Shown: piece after piece, positions 29,089-34,174 of the stretch
How positions within the stretch are numbered: the stretch's first letter is position 1
How the letters are laid out: each line of letters begins with the position of its first letter
Source of the DNA: Halococcus saccharolyticus DSM 5350
GTDB taxonomy: Archaea > Halobacteriota > Halobacteria > Halobacteriales > Halococcaceae
Length of the DNA: 64,000 bases
NCBI RefSeq assembly: GCF_000336915.1
Contig: NZ_AOMD01000025.1
Location: 160,431-224,430 of the forward strand
Reading direction: 5' to 3'
The notes under the pieces: model-generated
What the model was told of the DNA's origin: nothing
The model's input: only the letters and a program-made list of their open reading frames with translations
The model's database searches: none
Position numbers and translations under genes: made by a program

Positions 29089-30570
29089 ATGGGTGCGATA
29101 GAGGAGATCTACGCGGACCTCGACGCCGACGTACCCGAGGGGGAGTTCCGAGAGGCCGTCGAGGAGAAAGTCGAGGAGATGGGGGGGCTCGCCGACGAGG
29201 AGACCGCCGCGATGTTGATCGCCCACGAGGTCGCCGACGGGGAGGTCGAAGGCGTCGCCGACGTCGAGCCGGGGATGGAGGAGGCGAAGTTCGTCGCGAA
29301 GGTCACGAGCGTCGGCGAGCTCCGCACCTTCGAGCGCGACGGCGAGGACGAGGACGGCCAAGTCATCAACGTCGAGGTCGCCGACGAAACGGGACAGATC
29401 AGAGTGGCGTTCTGGGACGAACGGGCCGAAAGCGCGGCCGAGGAGCTCGAAACCGGTTCGGTACTCAAGATCGCGGGCCGGCCGCGCGAGGGGTACAACG
29501 GGATCGAGATCAGCGCGGATCGGGTCGAACCGGCCGACGTCGAGGTCGACGTCGATCTCGACGCCGCCGACACCATCGCGGGGCTCTCGCTCGGCCAGTC
29601 CGACGTCGATCTCGTGGGCCTCGTCCTCGACACCGACACCGTCAGAACGTTCGATCGCGACGACGGCTCGGAGGGTCGGGTGGCGAACCTCACGCTCGGC
29701 GACGAAACCGGCCGAACGCGGGTGACACTCTGGGACGACCAGGCAGGACGAGTCGAGGAACTCACAGCCGGCACGACGATCGAACTCACCGACGGCTACG
29801 TCCGCGAGCGCAACGGCGACCTCGAACTCCACGTCGGCGATCGCGGTGGCCTCACGGAGGTCGATGCCACGGTGGAGTACACGCCCGAAACCACCCCGAT
29901 CGAGGATCTGGAGATCGATACCACTGTGGACATCGGTGGCGTCATCAGGTCGACCGATCCCAAACGCACCTTCGACCGCGACGACGGCTCGGAGGGCCAG
30001 GTCAAGAACATCCGCGTTCAGGACGAGACCGGCGACATCCGGGTGGCGCTGTGGGGCGAGAAGGCCGACCGTGATCTGGGCCCGGGCGACGAGGTCCAGT
30101 TCGCGGACGTCGAGATCCAGGACGGCTGGCAGGACGATCTCGAAGCCTCGGCGGGCTGGCAGACGAGCGTGACGACGTTCGACACCGGCGGAGTGCCTTC
30201 GACTGCCGAAGACGACGAAACCAGCGACGACGAGACCGGTCTCGGAGCGTTCACCGGCGATGGTGCGAACAGCGAGAACGGGACGACGACCGACGGACAC
30301 GAGTCCGAAACCGAACGTGAGGCGGCGGACACAGCAGCGACGGATGCGGCAACGACGGACGCGACGACCGAAAACGGGACCGAGAGCGGTGCGGACGACG
30401 GGCCGATCGAGTTCACCGGGACGGTCGTACAGGCGAGTGATCCGGTAGTGCTCGACAACGGCAGCGAGACGATGCGCATCGAGACCTCCGCAACGGTACA
30501 CCTCGGCGAAGAGCTCACTGCGCGGGGACGGGAGGCCGACGGCGCGCTCGATGCGGACGAAGTGTTCTGA
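29089..30570 (+). CDS. rpa2: RPA-type single-stranded DNA-binding protein, multiple OB folds
   Basis: Binds ssDNA during replication and repair. 493 residues. There is an N-terminal helical piece, then three OB folds with repeated wording: FERDGEDEDGQVINVEV (about 84), FDRDDGSEGRVANLTL (about 187) and FDRDDGSEGQVKNIRV (about 291), each followed by DETG-x-(I/T)RV. A long acidic Thr-rich linker (about 370-440) leads to a short fourth OB-like segment. Haloferax Rpa2 has the same size and the same neighbour (a histone gene), which suggests the symbol. Histone and deacetylase-like genes follow on the same strand. Confidence 0.88.
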   Translation: MGAIEEIYADLDADVPEGEFREAVEEKVEEMGGLADEETAAMLIAHEVADGEVEGVADVEPGMEEAKFVAKVTSVGELRTFERDGEDEDGQVINVEVADETGQIRVAFWDERAESAAEELETGSVLKIAGRPREGYNGIEISADRVEPADVEVDVDLDAADTIAGLSLGQSDVDLVGLVLDTDTVRTFDRDDGSEGRVANLTLGDETGRTRVTLWDDQAGRVEELTAGTTIELTDGYVRERNGDLELHVGDRGGLTEVDATVEYTPETTPIEDLEIDTTVDIGGVIRSTDPKRTFDRDDGSEGQVKNIRVQDETGDIRVALWGEKADRDLGPGDEVQFADVEIQDGWQDDLEASAGWQTSVTTFDTGGVPSTAEDDETSDDETGLGAFTGDGANSENGTTTDGHESETEREAADTAATDAATTDATTENGTESGADDGPIEFTGTVVQASDPVVLDNGSETMRIETSATVHLGEELTARGREADGALDADEVF

Positions 30571-30615
30571 CGTCCCACGGAAACCCTTAAGACCGGAACA
30601 GTCCCCGTATGCGCT

Positions 30616-31059
30616 ATGAGCGTCGAGCTCCCGTTCGCGCCGGTCGACGCCGTGATCCGACGGCACGCCGGCTCGCTGCGGGTGAGCAGCGAGGCCACCG
30701 AGGAGCTCGCCGAACGCATCCAGCAGCGCGGCGCGCACCTCGCGGCCGACGCCGCCCAGCGCGCGACCGACGACGACCGCAAGACCCTTCAGGCCGCTGA
30801 CTTCGAGACCGACGCCGCCGGGCCCGGCGAACTCGAACTCCCGGTCGCGCCGGTCGATCGCATCGCCCGCCTCGACATCGACGACCGATACCGAGTCGCC
30901 CGGGACGCCCGGGTCGCGCTCGCCCACCGGCTCGAACGCTACGCCGGCCGGATCGCGGCGGCCGCGGCAGTGCTCGCGCGCCACGCCGGCCGGCGTACGA
31001 TCACGGTCGCCGACGTCGAGACGTACTTCGAACTCGCACCGTACTTCCCCGACGAATGA
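30616..31059 (+). CDS. hstA: Archaeal histone, tandem fusion of two histone folds
   Basis: 147 residues: two histone folds joined by a short loop, so the monomer makes its own handshake pair. Fold 1 includes LPFAPVDAVIRRHAG and KTLQAADFE; fold 2 includes LPVAPVDRIAR and RRTITVADVETYF. Halophile histones are known to be such doublets. It has only one lysine (about residue 56) while Arg is frequent. It overlaps the deacetylase-like gene by 4 nt (ATGA) and follows rpa2 by 45 bp, so the three are likely co-transcribed. Confidence 0.95.
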   Translation: MSVELPFAPVDAVIRRHAGSLRVSSEATEELAERIQQRGAHLAADAAQRATDDDRKTLQAADFETDAAGPGELELPVAPVDRIARLDIDDRYRVARDARVALAHRLERYAGRIAAAAAVLARHAGRRTITVADVETYFELAPYFPDE

Positions 31060-32066
31060 GATTCGGTTACTCCGCGGAGTGTCTCGAACACGATCCCGGC
31101 TCGCGCCACCCCGAGAGCCCCGACCGGCTCCGCGCCATCCGGCAGGCGCTCGCGAAACGTCACGGCGTCGAGTACGTCGAGGCCGATCCGATCGACGAGT
31201 CGGCCGCCCGAGCGGCCCACGACGCCGACTACGTTCGGGAATTTCGGGAGTTCTGTGCGTCGGGCGGTGGTCAGTGGGACCCCGACACCGTCGCGGTCGA
31301 GGCGACGTGGGACGCTGCACTCCGAAGTGCGGGACAGGCGGTGTGGGCCGCCGAAGCCGCCCTCGACGGCGCGAGCGGACGCGAAACTCCCTTCGCTCTC
31401 GGTCGACCGCCGGGCCACCACGCGGTCGCCGACGACGCGATGGGCTTCTGTTTCCTCAACAACGCCGCCATCGCGGCCGAGGCGATGATCGACGACGGGC
31501 GCGCGGAACGGGTCGCGATCGTCGACTGGGACGTCCACCACGGCAACGGCACCCAAGACATCTTCGAGGATCGAGGCGACGTGTTCTACGCTTCGATCCA
31601 CGAGCGCGGGCTCTACCCGGGCACCGGCGAGGCCGGCGAGATCGGAACGGGCGACGGCGAAGGCGCAACCGTGAACCTCGCGTACCCCTCCGGGGCGGGT
31701 GATCCGGCGTACGTCGCCGCGATCGACGAGGTGTTTGCGCCGCTTCTCGACGAGTTCGGTCCCGATCTCCTCCTCGTGAGTGCGGGCTTCGACGCTCACG
31801 AACACGACCCGATCTCACGGATGAGCGTCTCGACCGAGGGGTACGGTGTGCTGGCCGCACGGCTCCGTGATCTCGCGGATCGATCCGACGCGGGCTTCGG
31901 GTTCGTCCTCGAAGGCGGCTACGGTCTCGACACCCTTTCGGAAAGTATCACGACGGTGAACGAGGTCTTCGGCGGGTACGATCCCGTCGAACCCGAGGGA
32001 TCCGTCGACGATCGTGCGCGCTCAGTTATCGACGAAGTTCGAGCGGCTCACGGCCTCAACGGGTGA
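31056..32066 (+). CDS. Histone deacetylase-family (acetoin utilisation-type) zinc hydrolase
   Basis: 336 residues. The active site is intact: RPPGHHAV (about 111-118) with the His pair, DWDVHHGNGTQ (about 156-166) with zinc Asp and His, GFDAHEHDP (about 246-254) with the second zinc Asp, and EGGYGL with the catalytic Tyr. It hydrolyses an acetyl-amide of unknown target. The gene is translationally coupled to the histone. The next gene is convergent, with stop codons abutting. Confidence 0.93.
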   Translation: MRFGYSAECLEHDPGSRHPESPDRLRAIRQALAKRHGVEYVEADPIDESAARAAHDADYVREFREFCASGGGQWDPDTVAVEATWDAALRSAGQAVWAAEAALDGASGRETPFALGRPPGHHAVADDAMGFCFLNNAAIAAEAMIDDGRAERVAIVDWDVHHGNGTQDIFEDRGDVFYASIHERGLYPGTGEAGEIGTGDGEGATVNLAYPSGAGDPAYVAAIDEVFAPLLDEFGPDLLLVSAGFDAHEHDPISRMSVSTEGYGVLAARLRDLADRSDAGFGFVLEGGYGLDTLSESITTVNEVFGGYDPVEPEGSVDDRARSVIDEVRAAHGLNG

Positions 32067-32219
32067 TCAACAGCACCGACAGCAACAGCAGCCGCCGGCG
32101 AGAACCATCCCGACGGGAACCTCAACTGTGGTTTCGAACAGGTCGGCGAGCGATTCGGCGTCGGCCTCACAACAGTGTTGCTCTGCCATCGCAGTCGGAC
32201 TGACGGGCTTCGATGACAT
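32067..32219 (-). CDS. Small cysteine-rich protein ending in Cys-Cys (halo-CC-star small type)
   Basis: 50 residues, or 40 from the inner ATG at 32189. AEQHCCEADAESLADLFE is followed by a Gly/Cys-rich end (GGCCCCRCC stop), eight Cys in all (six of them at the end). It is divergent from the regulator at 32306, which also ends in CC. I recall NCBI families named halo-CC-star HcsS and HcsL for such pairs; that is memory, not a search. The dense Cys tail suggests metal binding or thiol chemistry. Its stop directly abuts the stop of the deacetylase gene. Confidence 0.6.
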   Translation of the reverse strand: MSSKPVSPTAMAEQHCCEADAESLADLFETTVEVPVGMVLAGGCCCCRCC

Positions 32220-32305
32220 AAAGAAGTCAGATTCTCGATAGAAACGCGCTTTCCGAACGGAAACCGGATGTGGGGATTCAGGTATTGGTAGCACCGAAGA
32301 GACGT

Positions 32306-32743
32306 ATGAACGAGAAGTCACCCGAACGTGCTGCCATCGAACCACCGGAGTCCGCCACCGAGGAATCGTCGGAATGGCGGGCCGTGTGGCACGGCCTCCA
32401 CCAAGCGCTGCGGGGGAAGTGGGCGATGCACGTCCTTCGGCTGCTCTTCGAGGGACCACGGGGATTCAACGAGATGCGCCGTGAACTCGACGGACCGACG
32501 GCGAAGACGCTCTCGGAACGCCTGACCGAACTCCGGTGTCACGGTCTCGTCGAGCGCCACGTCGAGGCGACGTCGCCGCCCTCGACGCGGTACGAACTCA
32601 CCCCTGCTGGGAGACGATTCGTCGCAGTGCTTCGGGAGCTAGAGGTGGAAGTCGATCTCGTCGAGTGTGGCTGTGCGGAGGAGTGTGAGGTGGCCACCGT
32701 GGATGCCGAGCGAACGGCAGCGGCCACCGAGGAGTGTTGTTGA
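32306..32743 (+). CDS. HxlR-type winged-helix regulator with Cys-Cys terminus
   Basis: 145 residues. The winged-helix core (WAMHVLRLLFEGPRGFNEMR, TAKTLSERLTELRCHGLVER, RYELTPAGRRFVAVL) fits HxlR/PadR-like repressors. Extra to the fold is a C-terminal tail with CGCAEEC (about 124-130) and a final EECC. These Cys could bind metal or sense redox state. Pairing with the divergent Cys-rich gene across an 86-bp gap suggests that it controls that gene. The start is the ATG at 32306; an upstream extension is unlike the family. Confidence 0.75.
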   Translation: MNEKSPERAAIEPPESATEESSEWRAVWHGLHQALRGKWAMHVLRLLFEGPRGFNEMRRELDGPTAKTLSERLTELRCHGLVERHVEATSPPSTRYELTPAGRRFVAVLRELEVEVDLVECGCAEECEVATVDAERTAAATEECC

Positions 32744-32809: not shown

Positions 32810-34174
32810 TCAGGGCGTTGGCGAAAAGTAGCGCGCCAGCTTCGCGCCGAACTCGTCGGCCAGGCGAGCCGTCTCGTCGCCAACGAGCACCGTGTAGTCG
32901 GCCGCGAGCGCACGTTCGACGTCCGCGCCGAGCGCCACGTCGAACAGCGCGTCGCTTTCGAGGAACGTCCGTGGGCTGGGGAACGTTCGCTCGCGCTCGA
33001 CGACGTACCGTCCTCCTTCGACGAACGGGCCGTAGCAGTCCGTGTCGGCGTACTTCTCGTAGAAGGCGGTGGCGTGATCGCGCGCGCTCACCGGCGGTCC
33101 CTCGTGGCGCTCGATTCGGGGCCGTTCGGCGACCCCGAGTTCGACGAACAGGACGGCCGACTCGTCGGCGAACGCGGCCGATCGGAGTGAGTCGAACCCG
33201 CGCCGGTCGAGCGCATCGGCCACTCCCCGTCGGGAGCGTTCGAGCTGGGGGTAGAGCTGGTCGTCGACGAGATCCGGTGGATCGAACCGCACAGCGACCG
33301 GAATCGTTCCACGACGTTCGAGCTCGGTCCGGACCTCCGCGGCAGAGAGCGGTGCGGACGAATCGGGAGTGAATGCAGACTCGCGCGGGTCGGCGCAGAG
33401 GTCGCGAGCGTAGTGCTGGAACCGGGCGAGATTGGTGGTCGAGAGTACCGCCGCGACGTTGCGCCCGGGATCGGTCGGGTCGACCACCACGAGCGGGTCG
33501 TCGAACCCCTCGTTTTGGGGGGTGCCGTGGCCTTCGGGATCGAACCGTACCGGTGGGTGCCAGTCGACGGCCGACTCGATCAGCGGGCGAAATCCACCGT
33601 GTTCGAGCGTGAGGAGTTCGACGAGATAGCCCGAAAACCCCCGTGTTCGGAGGTCGCTGCCGTAGACGCCGATCGCCGAGAGGAGCTGTTTTGCGAGTCT
33701 GACATCGGCGGCGAGCGCCGCGTCGAGACGGGAATCGAGATACTGCGTATGAAAGGGCGTTCGATCGACCGCCGACCGGACGTCGGCCGCGCGTTCGACC
33801 CGAAAGCAGGGAACGAGATCGACCGCGAACCCGTCGAAATCGCCGGTAACGTAGGGGTGTTCGGCGTACTCCTCGCGACCGTCGGGGAGCACCTGATGAC
33901 CGATCGCGAGCCCGTGGTGTTCGAGATCTTCGCGGGGAAGCCCCGGCGGGAATCGGACGAACAGATCGATGTCACGGTCGCCGGGCAGCCACGTGCCGCG
34001 AGCGGTGGAGCCAACGTGGACGACATCCGCTTCGACTGGGCGGTCCGCGACCGCGCGCTCGGTGGCGTCGGTGAGCCGATCGACGGCCTCGTCGAGACGG
34101 GCGCGTTCCTCGGCGTCGGGGGTGACGCGATCGCGAACCCGTGTGAGAACGGCGTCGAGGGCGTCGTCGGTCAT
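32810..34174 (-). CDS. cca: Archaeal CCA-adding tRNA nucleotidyltransferase
   Basis: Builds or repairs the 3' CCA of tRNA; none of the tRNAs here encode CCA, so it is essential. 454 residues, class I type. The catalytic site has GSTARGTWLPGDRDIDLFV (about 55-73) with Asp68 and Asp70, and a third Asp in FDGFAVDLVPC (about 116). The C-terminal part with PPVSARDHATAFYEKY and the tail region fits the archaeal enzyme. The gene runs opposite to tRNA-Asn, which begins 85 bp away. Confidence 0.95.
   Translation of the reverse strand: MTDDALDAVLTRVRDRVTPDAEERARLDEAVDRLTDATERAVADRPVEADVVHVGSTARGTWLPGDRDIDLFVRFPPGLPREDLEHHGLAIGHQVLPDGREEYAEHPYVTGDFDGFAVDLVPCFRVERAADVRSAVDRTPFHTQYLDSRLDAALAADVRLAKQLLSAIGVYGSDLRTRGFSGYLVELLTLEHGGFRPLIESAVDWHPPVRFDPEGHGTPQNEGFDDPLVVVDPTDPGRNVAAVLSTTNLARFQHYARDLCADPRESAFTPDSSAPLSAAEVRTELERRGTIPVAVRFDPPDLVDDQLYPQLERSRRGVADALDRRGFDSLRSAAFADESAVLFVELGVAERPRIERHEGPPVSARDHATAFYEKYADTDCYGPFVEGGRYVVERERTFPSPRTFLESDALFDVALGADVERALAADYTVLVGDETARLADEFGAKLARYFSPTP

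Follow-up and report, generated by a model that had tools for sequence, protein, structure and literature searches.

A divergent gene pair of Halococcus saccharolyticus encoding a YodB-like HxlR-family regulator and a cysteine-rich peptide, with a proposed role in metal(loid) or thiol stress

The DNA analysed here (the window, a stretch of 64,000 nucleotides from contig NZ_AOMD01000025.1 of Halococcus saccharolyticus DSM 5350) carries at positions 32067–32743 two divergent genes, one for a small Cys-rich peptide on the minus strand and one for an HxlR-type regulator on the plus strand. The C-terminal ends read from the sequence (GGCCCCRCC for the peptide and TEECC for the regulator, each followed directly by the stop codon) bear out the original prediction of a divergent pair with CCCCRCC and EECC termini. 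The pair is flanked on one side by a histone-deacetylase-family (HDAC-family) gene (31056–32066, plus strand; Pfam PF00850), whose stop codon abuts that of the peptide gene, and on the other by the gene for the CCA-adding enzyme (cca; 32810–34174, minus strand; Pfam PF21133 and PF09249). Genes for a replication-protein-A-like protein, a two-domain archaeal histone and the HDAC-family protein lie in a row at 29089–32066, with a 4-bp overlap between the last two.

The peptide reading frame offers two possible start codons. The outer ATG (32217–32219), which would give a 50-aa product, falls within the sequence TTTATG (32217–32222, minus strand), a predicted TATA-like box that lies ~28–33 nt before the inner start, and it has no counterpart in G005, one of the related genomes that carry the gene. 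The inner ATG (32187–32189) is kept in each of the three species of the genus in which the peptide gene occurs and, since the same start position gives a gap of 114–118 bp between start codons at other loci (see below), we conclude that the peptide gene (32067–32189, minus strand) encodes 40 aa and is separated from the regulator gene by 116 bp. The original prediction of a 50-residue peptide and an 86-bp gap is corrected to these values, the outer start being rejected on account of its position inside the TATA-like box, its absence from G005 and a gap length unlike that at the other loci. The in-frame stretch upstream of the inner start (32190–32219, minus strand) is probably promoter or 5′ region and non-coding. 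With the inner start the peptide reads MAEQHCCEADAESLADLFETTVEVPVGMVLAGGCCCCRCC and has eight Cys residues, at positions 6, 7, 34–37, 39 and 40. Both genes evolve as coding sequence: for the peptide gene pS is 0.26 and pN 0.06 between the window genome (G000) and G003, and 0.51 and 0.13 between G000 and G005 (pN/pS 0.25–0.26), while for the regulator gene pS is 0.25 and pN 0.05 (pN/pS about 0.20, against about 0.25 for the peptide gene). No other predicted protein in 464 kb of the window genome (421 predicted genes) shares the CC end of the regulator, and the peptide gene is the only Cys-rich small ORF ending CC in the same 464 kb; given this rarity, the occurrence of two such ends in one pair is more than would be expected by chance.

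Ten genomes of the genus (G000–G009, of which G007 is fragmentary at the site) were compared at this locus. In three of them (G000, G003 and G005) the peptide and regulator genes are flanked by the HDAC-family gene and cca; both are missing from G001, G002, G004, G006, G008 and G009, where the HDAC-family gene and cca stand tail to tail. At the empty site of these six relatives (loci L120 and L122–L126) there is practically no gap between the HDAC-family and cca genes. Within the genus, then, the two genes occupy a single site and are either both there or both missing. As G002 is a close sister of the window genome (its cca is 90% identical) and yet has an empty site, the pair is gained or lost as a block.

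Regulator homologues from a wider sample (30 loci out of 294 Halobacteria genomes, the locus counts given below not being counts of independent events) form a tree that divides largely by the type of partner protein, into groups A, B and C. Group A, which includes the window regulator, is partnered by Cys-rich peptides: a divergent Cys-rich small ORF lies beside 15/30 regulators, and 13 of these 15 ORFs end in CC, whereas none of 240 control genes has a divergent Cys-rich ORF ending CC. The two genes do co-occur, as the original prediction would have it, both within the genus and at half of the regulators sampled. A start-to-start gap of 114–118 bp, as compared with 116 bp in the window, is available at 12/15 group A loci, a count that includes L093 (ATG at 115 bp) and L111 (118 bp), where the start differs from the one picked automatically. 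The group A pairs occupy different genomic sites, the HDAC/cca site being that of the window pair; several family f5 genomes have the pair next to a thiolase and OB-fold gene pair, and three family f17 genomes have it next to a cation-efflux gene. No ars gene was found beside the window pair or beside most of the other group A pairs. The window peptide matches no Pfam family, and outside the genus a profile search with it returned nothing above chance-level matches. These peptides diverge too fast for profile searching, so the others had to be recognised by position beside the regulator and by composition, with a simple gene caller; the small proteins of different families can hardly be aligned with one another, and a common function across families is accordingly an assumption drawn from position and composition.

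The regulator gene (32306–32743, plus strand) encodes a protein of 145 aa that matches the Pfam HxlR family (PF01638) with 64.4 bits (E-value 8.9e-18) against a gathering score of 20.8 bits. An AlphaFold model of it is a winged helix (mean pLDDT 79.6, above 90 in the core and low in the tails), and YodB is its best match both by profile (7e-17) and by structure, with HypR, HxlR and QsrR close behind and SqrR further down the list from the structure search. The protein has Cys residues at positions 78, 121, 123, 127, 144 and 145. An equivalent of Cys78, at the end of the HTH helix, is near-universal in the family (29/30 regulators), and two Cys columns in the family tail are occupied in 23/30 (column 149) and 26/30 (column 167). 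In the profile alignment one of the family tail Cys falls on Cys108 of YodB, and another lies one column off Cys101. The C-terminal Cys pair that follows the dimer helix in regulators of the YodB type is thus represented in the window regulator by Cys121 and Cys127 (the first being one column off), and the reactive N-terminal Cys of that type (Cys6) is lacking: the first Cys of the window regulator is residue 78, and N-terminal Cys are almost absent across the family. The last residue is Cys in 21/30 regulators, although only 3/30 end in CC and the G005 regulator ends EEC, so that the idea of a conserved CC terminus stands for the peptide (13/15 loci) and not for the regulator. The one regulator in which Cys78 is replaced (by Arg; locus L084 of genome G309) also has an insertion in the HTH region and no peptide partner, and is possibly a decaying copy; relaxed constraint after loss of the partner would fit both the missing Cys and the insertion.

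Between the two genes lies an inverted repeat (TTTCCG-AA-CGGAAA, 32250–32263; TTTCCGAACGGAAA) that is a candidate operator and has the form TTTC-N6-GAAA. The more general pattern TTTC-N5-7-GAAA occurs within 130 bp upstream of 18/30 regulators as compared with 0.16 expected from dinucleotide shuffles, a figure that is inflated by kinship among the loci, although these span several families, and that counts a match at L061 which is not at the homologous site, the homologous site there having decayed. In 11/15 group A loci the palindrome begins 56–58 nt before the regulator start. It has decayed in G005 and is absent upstream of the group C regulators, whose genes are internal to operons. Across the 3.45 Mb assembly the pattern TTTCCGNNCGGAAA occurs at this one place, an indication that the regulator acts mainly on its own locus.

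The regulators of groups B and C point to the kind of stress in which the family may be engaged. Group B regulators mostly lie divergent to a gene for a DUF2703/‘DF family’ thioredoxin-fold protein ending CGC, CEC, CDC or CC, and four group B loci also hold genes for an ArsP_1 permease and ArsR, three of these four having in addition a gene for an ArsE-type thioredoxin. The DUF2703/‘DF family’ proteins of one cluster (c2; loci L071, L096, L100, L102, L104, L107, L108, L113 and L114) carry a CxxC motif and a Cys tail. DUF2703 genes are present in ars clusters and are induced by arsenate in Rhodococcus (PMC6514093), and the arsADRC operon of Halobacterium NRC-1 is inducible by arsenite (PMC3600143). 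In group C the regulator comes after an Rdx protein ending GCC, and at 3/4 of these loci it closes an arsenic island that contains ACR3, ArsR, ArsD, ArsA and HcsL and/or HcsS. Group C loci L094–L099 also have a 90-aa protein encoded between the Rdx gene and the regulator (cluster c17, e.g. L099:5677–5949) that has several Cys, some in a CxxC-type CEHCGC motif, for which no Pfam or NCBIfam match was found. In the public annotation of Halorubrum lacusprofundi pHLAC01 the gene order is arsD-arsA-hcsL-hcsS-Rdx, with a homologue of the window regulator directly downstream, and a Halosimplex aquaticum plasmid is annotated with the same order, hcsL and hcsS again being named. On these two plasmids (L139:4838–7854 and L140:6111–7854, respectively) four CC- or Cys-tailed families are thus found in or beside one arsenic operon. 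A literature search found no paper joining the HxlR family with arsenite.

The original prediction had identified the window pair with HcsS and HcsL, the haloarchaeal ‘halo-CC-star’ system. This had some appeal, as the HcsS/HcsL proteins have the same CC ends, come from the same clade of organisms and are encoded in ars islands beside regulators homologous to that of the window. The NCBIfam searches refute the family assignment: neither window protein matches the HcsS model (NF041415, 55 positions, cut-off 55 bits) or the HcsL model (NF041416, cut-off 140 bits) even at E ≤ 10, no HcsS was found in G000, G003 or G005, and the best match of the HcsL model in the window genome is far below the cut-off (1.3e-11). 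The same models gave 99 bits for HcsS (cluster c51) and 160 bits for HcsL (cluster c46) in locus L098, which served as positive control. True HcsL and HcsS differ from the window pair not only in sequence family (HcsL being YlbF-like) but also in arrangement, since they are co-directional neighbours downstream of ArsA in the arsD-arsA operon whereas the window genes are divergent, and neither of them is a regulator. That the window pair is a version of this system can be dismissed almost entirely; the name was misapplied, though it pointed to the right biological neighbourhood. A literature search found no paper on HcsL/HcsS.

Taken together, the palindrome, the YodB-type domain, the pattern of Cys residues, the joint presence or absence of the two genes and the arsenic or thiol context of the sister clades suggest a metal(loid)- or thiol-sensing, YodB-like and self-regulating repressor that controls a metal(loid)- or thiol-binding Cys-rich peptide, a reading to which we would give a probability of about 0.6. 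A dimer of the regulator would bind the palindrome between the genes and so repress both its own gene and the divergent peptide gene. Cys residues of the regulator would then react with As(III)/Sb(III), with a different thiophilic metal or with a thiol-reactive stressor, the candidates being Cys78 (end of the HTH helix), Cys121/127 (beyond the dimer helix) and Cys144/145 (C terminus), and the resulting change of shape would release repression. The induced 40-residue peptide, with its CC...CCCCRCC clusters, would sequester the metal(loid) or buffer the thiol stress in the manner of a metallothionein. Because relatives of the regulator lie inside arsenic-resistance clusters the pair probably detects toxic metal(loid)s or thiol stress and sequesters or buffers them, but the ligand is uncertain as no ars gene adjoins the window locus. 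The absence of an equivalent of YodB Cys6, and the fact that some group A pairs adjoin a cation-efflux gene instead of ars genes, count against this reading. The original suggestion, of a regulator that responds to a metal or thiol state and governs the peptide, nevertheless comes out as the best-supported model, in view of the palindrome, the YodB-type fold, the conserved Cys and the homologues in ars operons, the regulation and the ligand being the parts of it that we infer.

A different division of roles has a smaller but appreciable chance of being correct, namely that the system is purely one of redox or electrophile response, in which oxidants, quinones or reactive sulfur act on the regulator through its Cys, the peptide serves as a sacrificial thiol or persulfide buffer, and neither metals nor arsenic have any part in group A. 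The nearest structures (YodB, HypR, QsrR and HxlR, then SqrR), the thioredoxin-fold partners of group B and the lack of ars neighbours in group A all agree with it. Against this, the regulators of group C form part of ars islands, the Cys-rich tail would suit metal(loid)s equally well, and the N-terminal sensing Cys of YodB and HypR is missing. The peptide might instead be the precursor of a thiazole/oxazole-modified (streptolysin-S-like, TOMM) peptide whose production the regulator controls, a suggestion that derives from a weak similarity of its GGCCCC part to TIGR03602 (streptolysin S; E-value 0.0087, 16 bits). This score is below the curated cut-off of 35 bits, the other group A peptides have no streptolysin S match, and no modification genes are found among the neighbours (RPA, histone, HDAC-family and cca). 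YcaO is general: almost all genomes, the Haloferax volcanii control among them, encode a single copy, which here lies on another contig. We consider such a precursor very unlikely and have rejected it on the strength of the weak score and the generality of YcaO. CC and CxC ends are lipidated in eukaryotic Rab proteins, and isoprenoid-modified proteins have been reported from halobacteria, so the ends of the associated proteins (CC, CGC, CDC, CEC and CRC) could be imagined as lipid-attachment signals that direct them to the membrane next to efflux pumps; but the peptide has Cys clusters apart from its end and a DNA-binding regulator has no evident need of a lipid anchor, and we regard this as highly improbable.

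Metal(loid) or thiol sensing by the window pair could have a broader setting, which we put forward as a tentative and rather doubtful extension: the CC/CxC end may be a functional handle common to unrelated haloarchaeal proteins, whose tails would pass As(III) or another thiophilic ligand from one to the next until it is finally read by the tail of the regulator. The proteins of such a thiol network might be the regulator family, its Cys-rich peptides, HcsL, HcsS, the Rdx protein and the DUF2703 protein. The gene order links HcsL/HcsS to arsenic operons and to one family of regulators, and the window pair, consisting of just two genes that are cleanly present or absent at a single site, is an easy genetic target.

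The window pair resembles several known systems in part. The closest annotated relatives of its regulator are housed in haloarchaeal ars operons (arsADRC of NRC-1 and ACR3-ArsR/ArsD-ArsA-HcsL-HcsS-Rdx-HxlR of pHLAC01); unlike these, the pair stands alone and comprises two genes, neither of which encodes a transporter or reductase. Like metallothioneins and other small Cys-rich metal-binding peptides, which are small and have at least 15–20% Cys in clusters, the window peptide is tiny, has clustered Cys (8/40 residues, 20%) and lies beside a regulator, but it belongs to no Pfam family and its metal binding is putative. With YodB, the HxlR/DUF24 redox repressor of Bacillus subtilis (PDB 5HS7–5HS9), and with HypR and QsrR the window regulator shares the fold of a winged-helix dimer. 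YodB senses diamide and quinones via Cys6/Cys101 and binds TACT-N7-AGTA (PMC8063818), a palindrome with spacing similar to that of the candidate operator. The window family differs from it in having no Cys6, a near-universal Cys where the HTH helix ends and a longer tail rich in Cys, and the window regulator in being archaeal and having a Cys-rich peptide instead of an oxidoreductase as its partner. OxsR of Haloferax volcanii belongs to another family (TrmB), has a global regulon and uses a single sensing Cys, but is likewise a haloarchaeal thiol-based winged-helix regulator and so provides a precedent for the type of control proposed here (PMC9426492).
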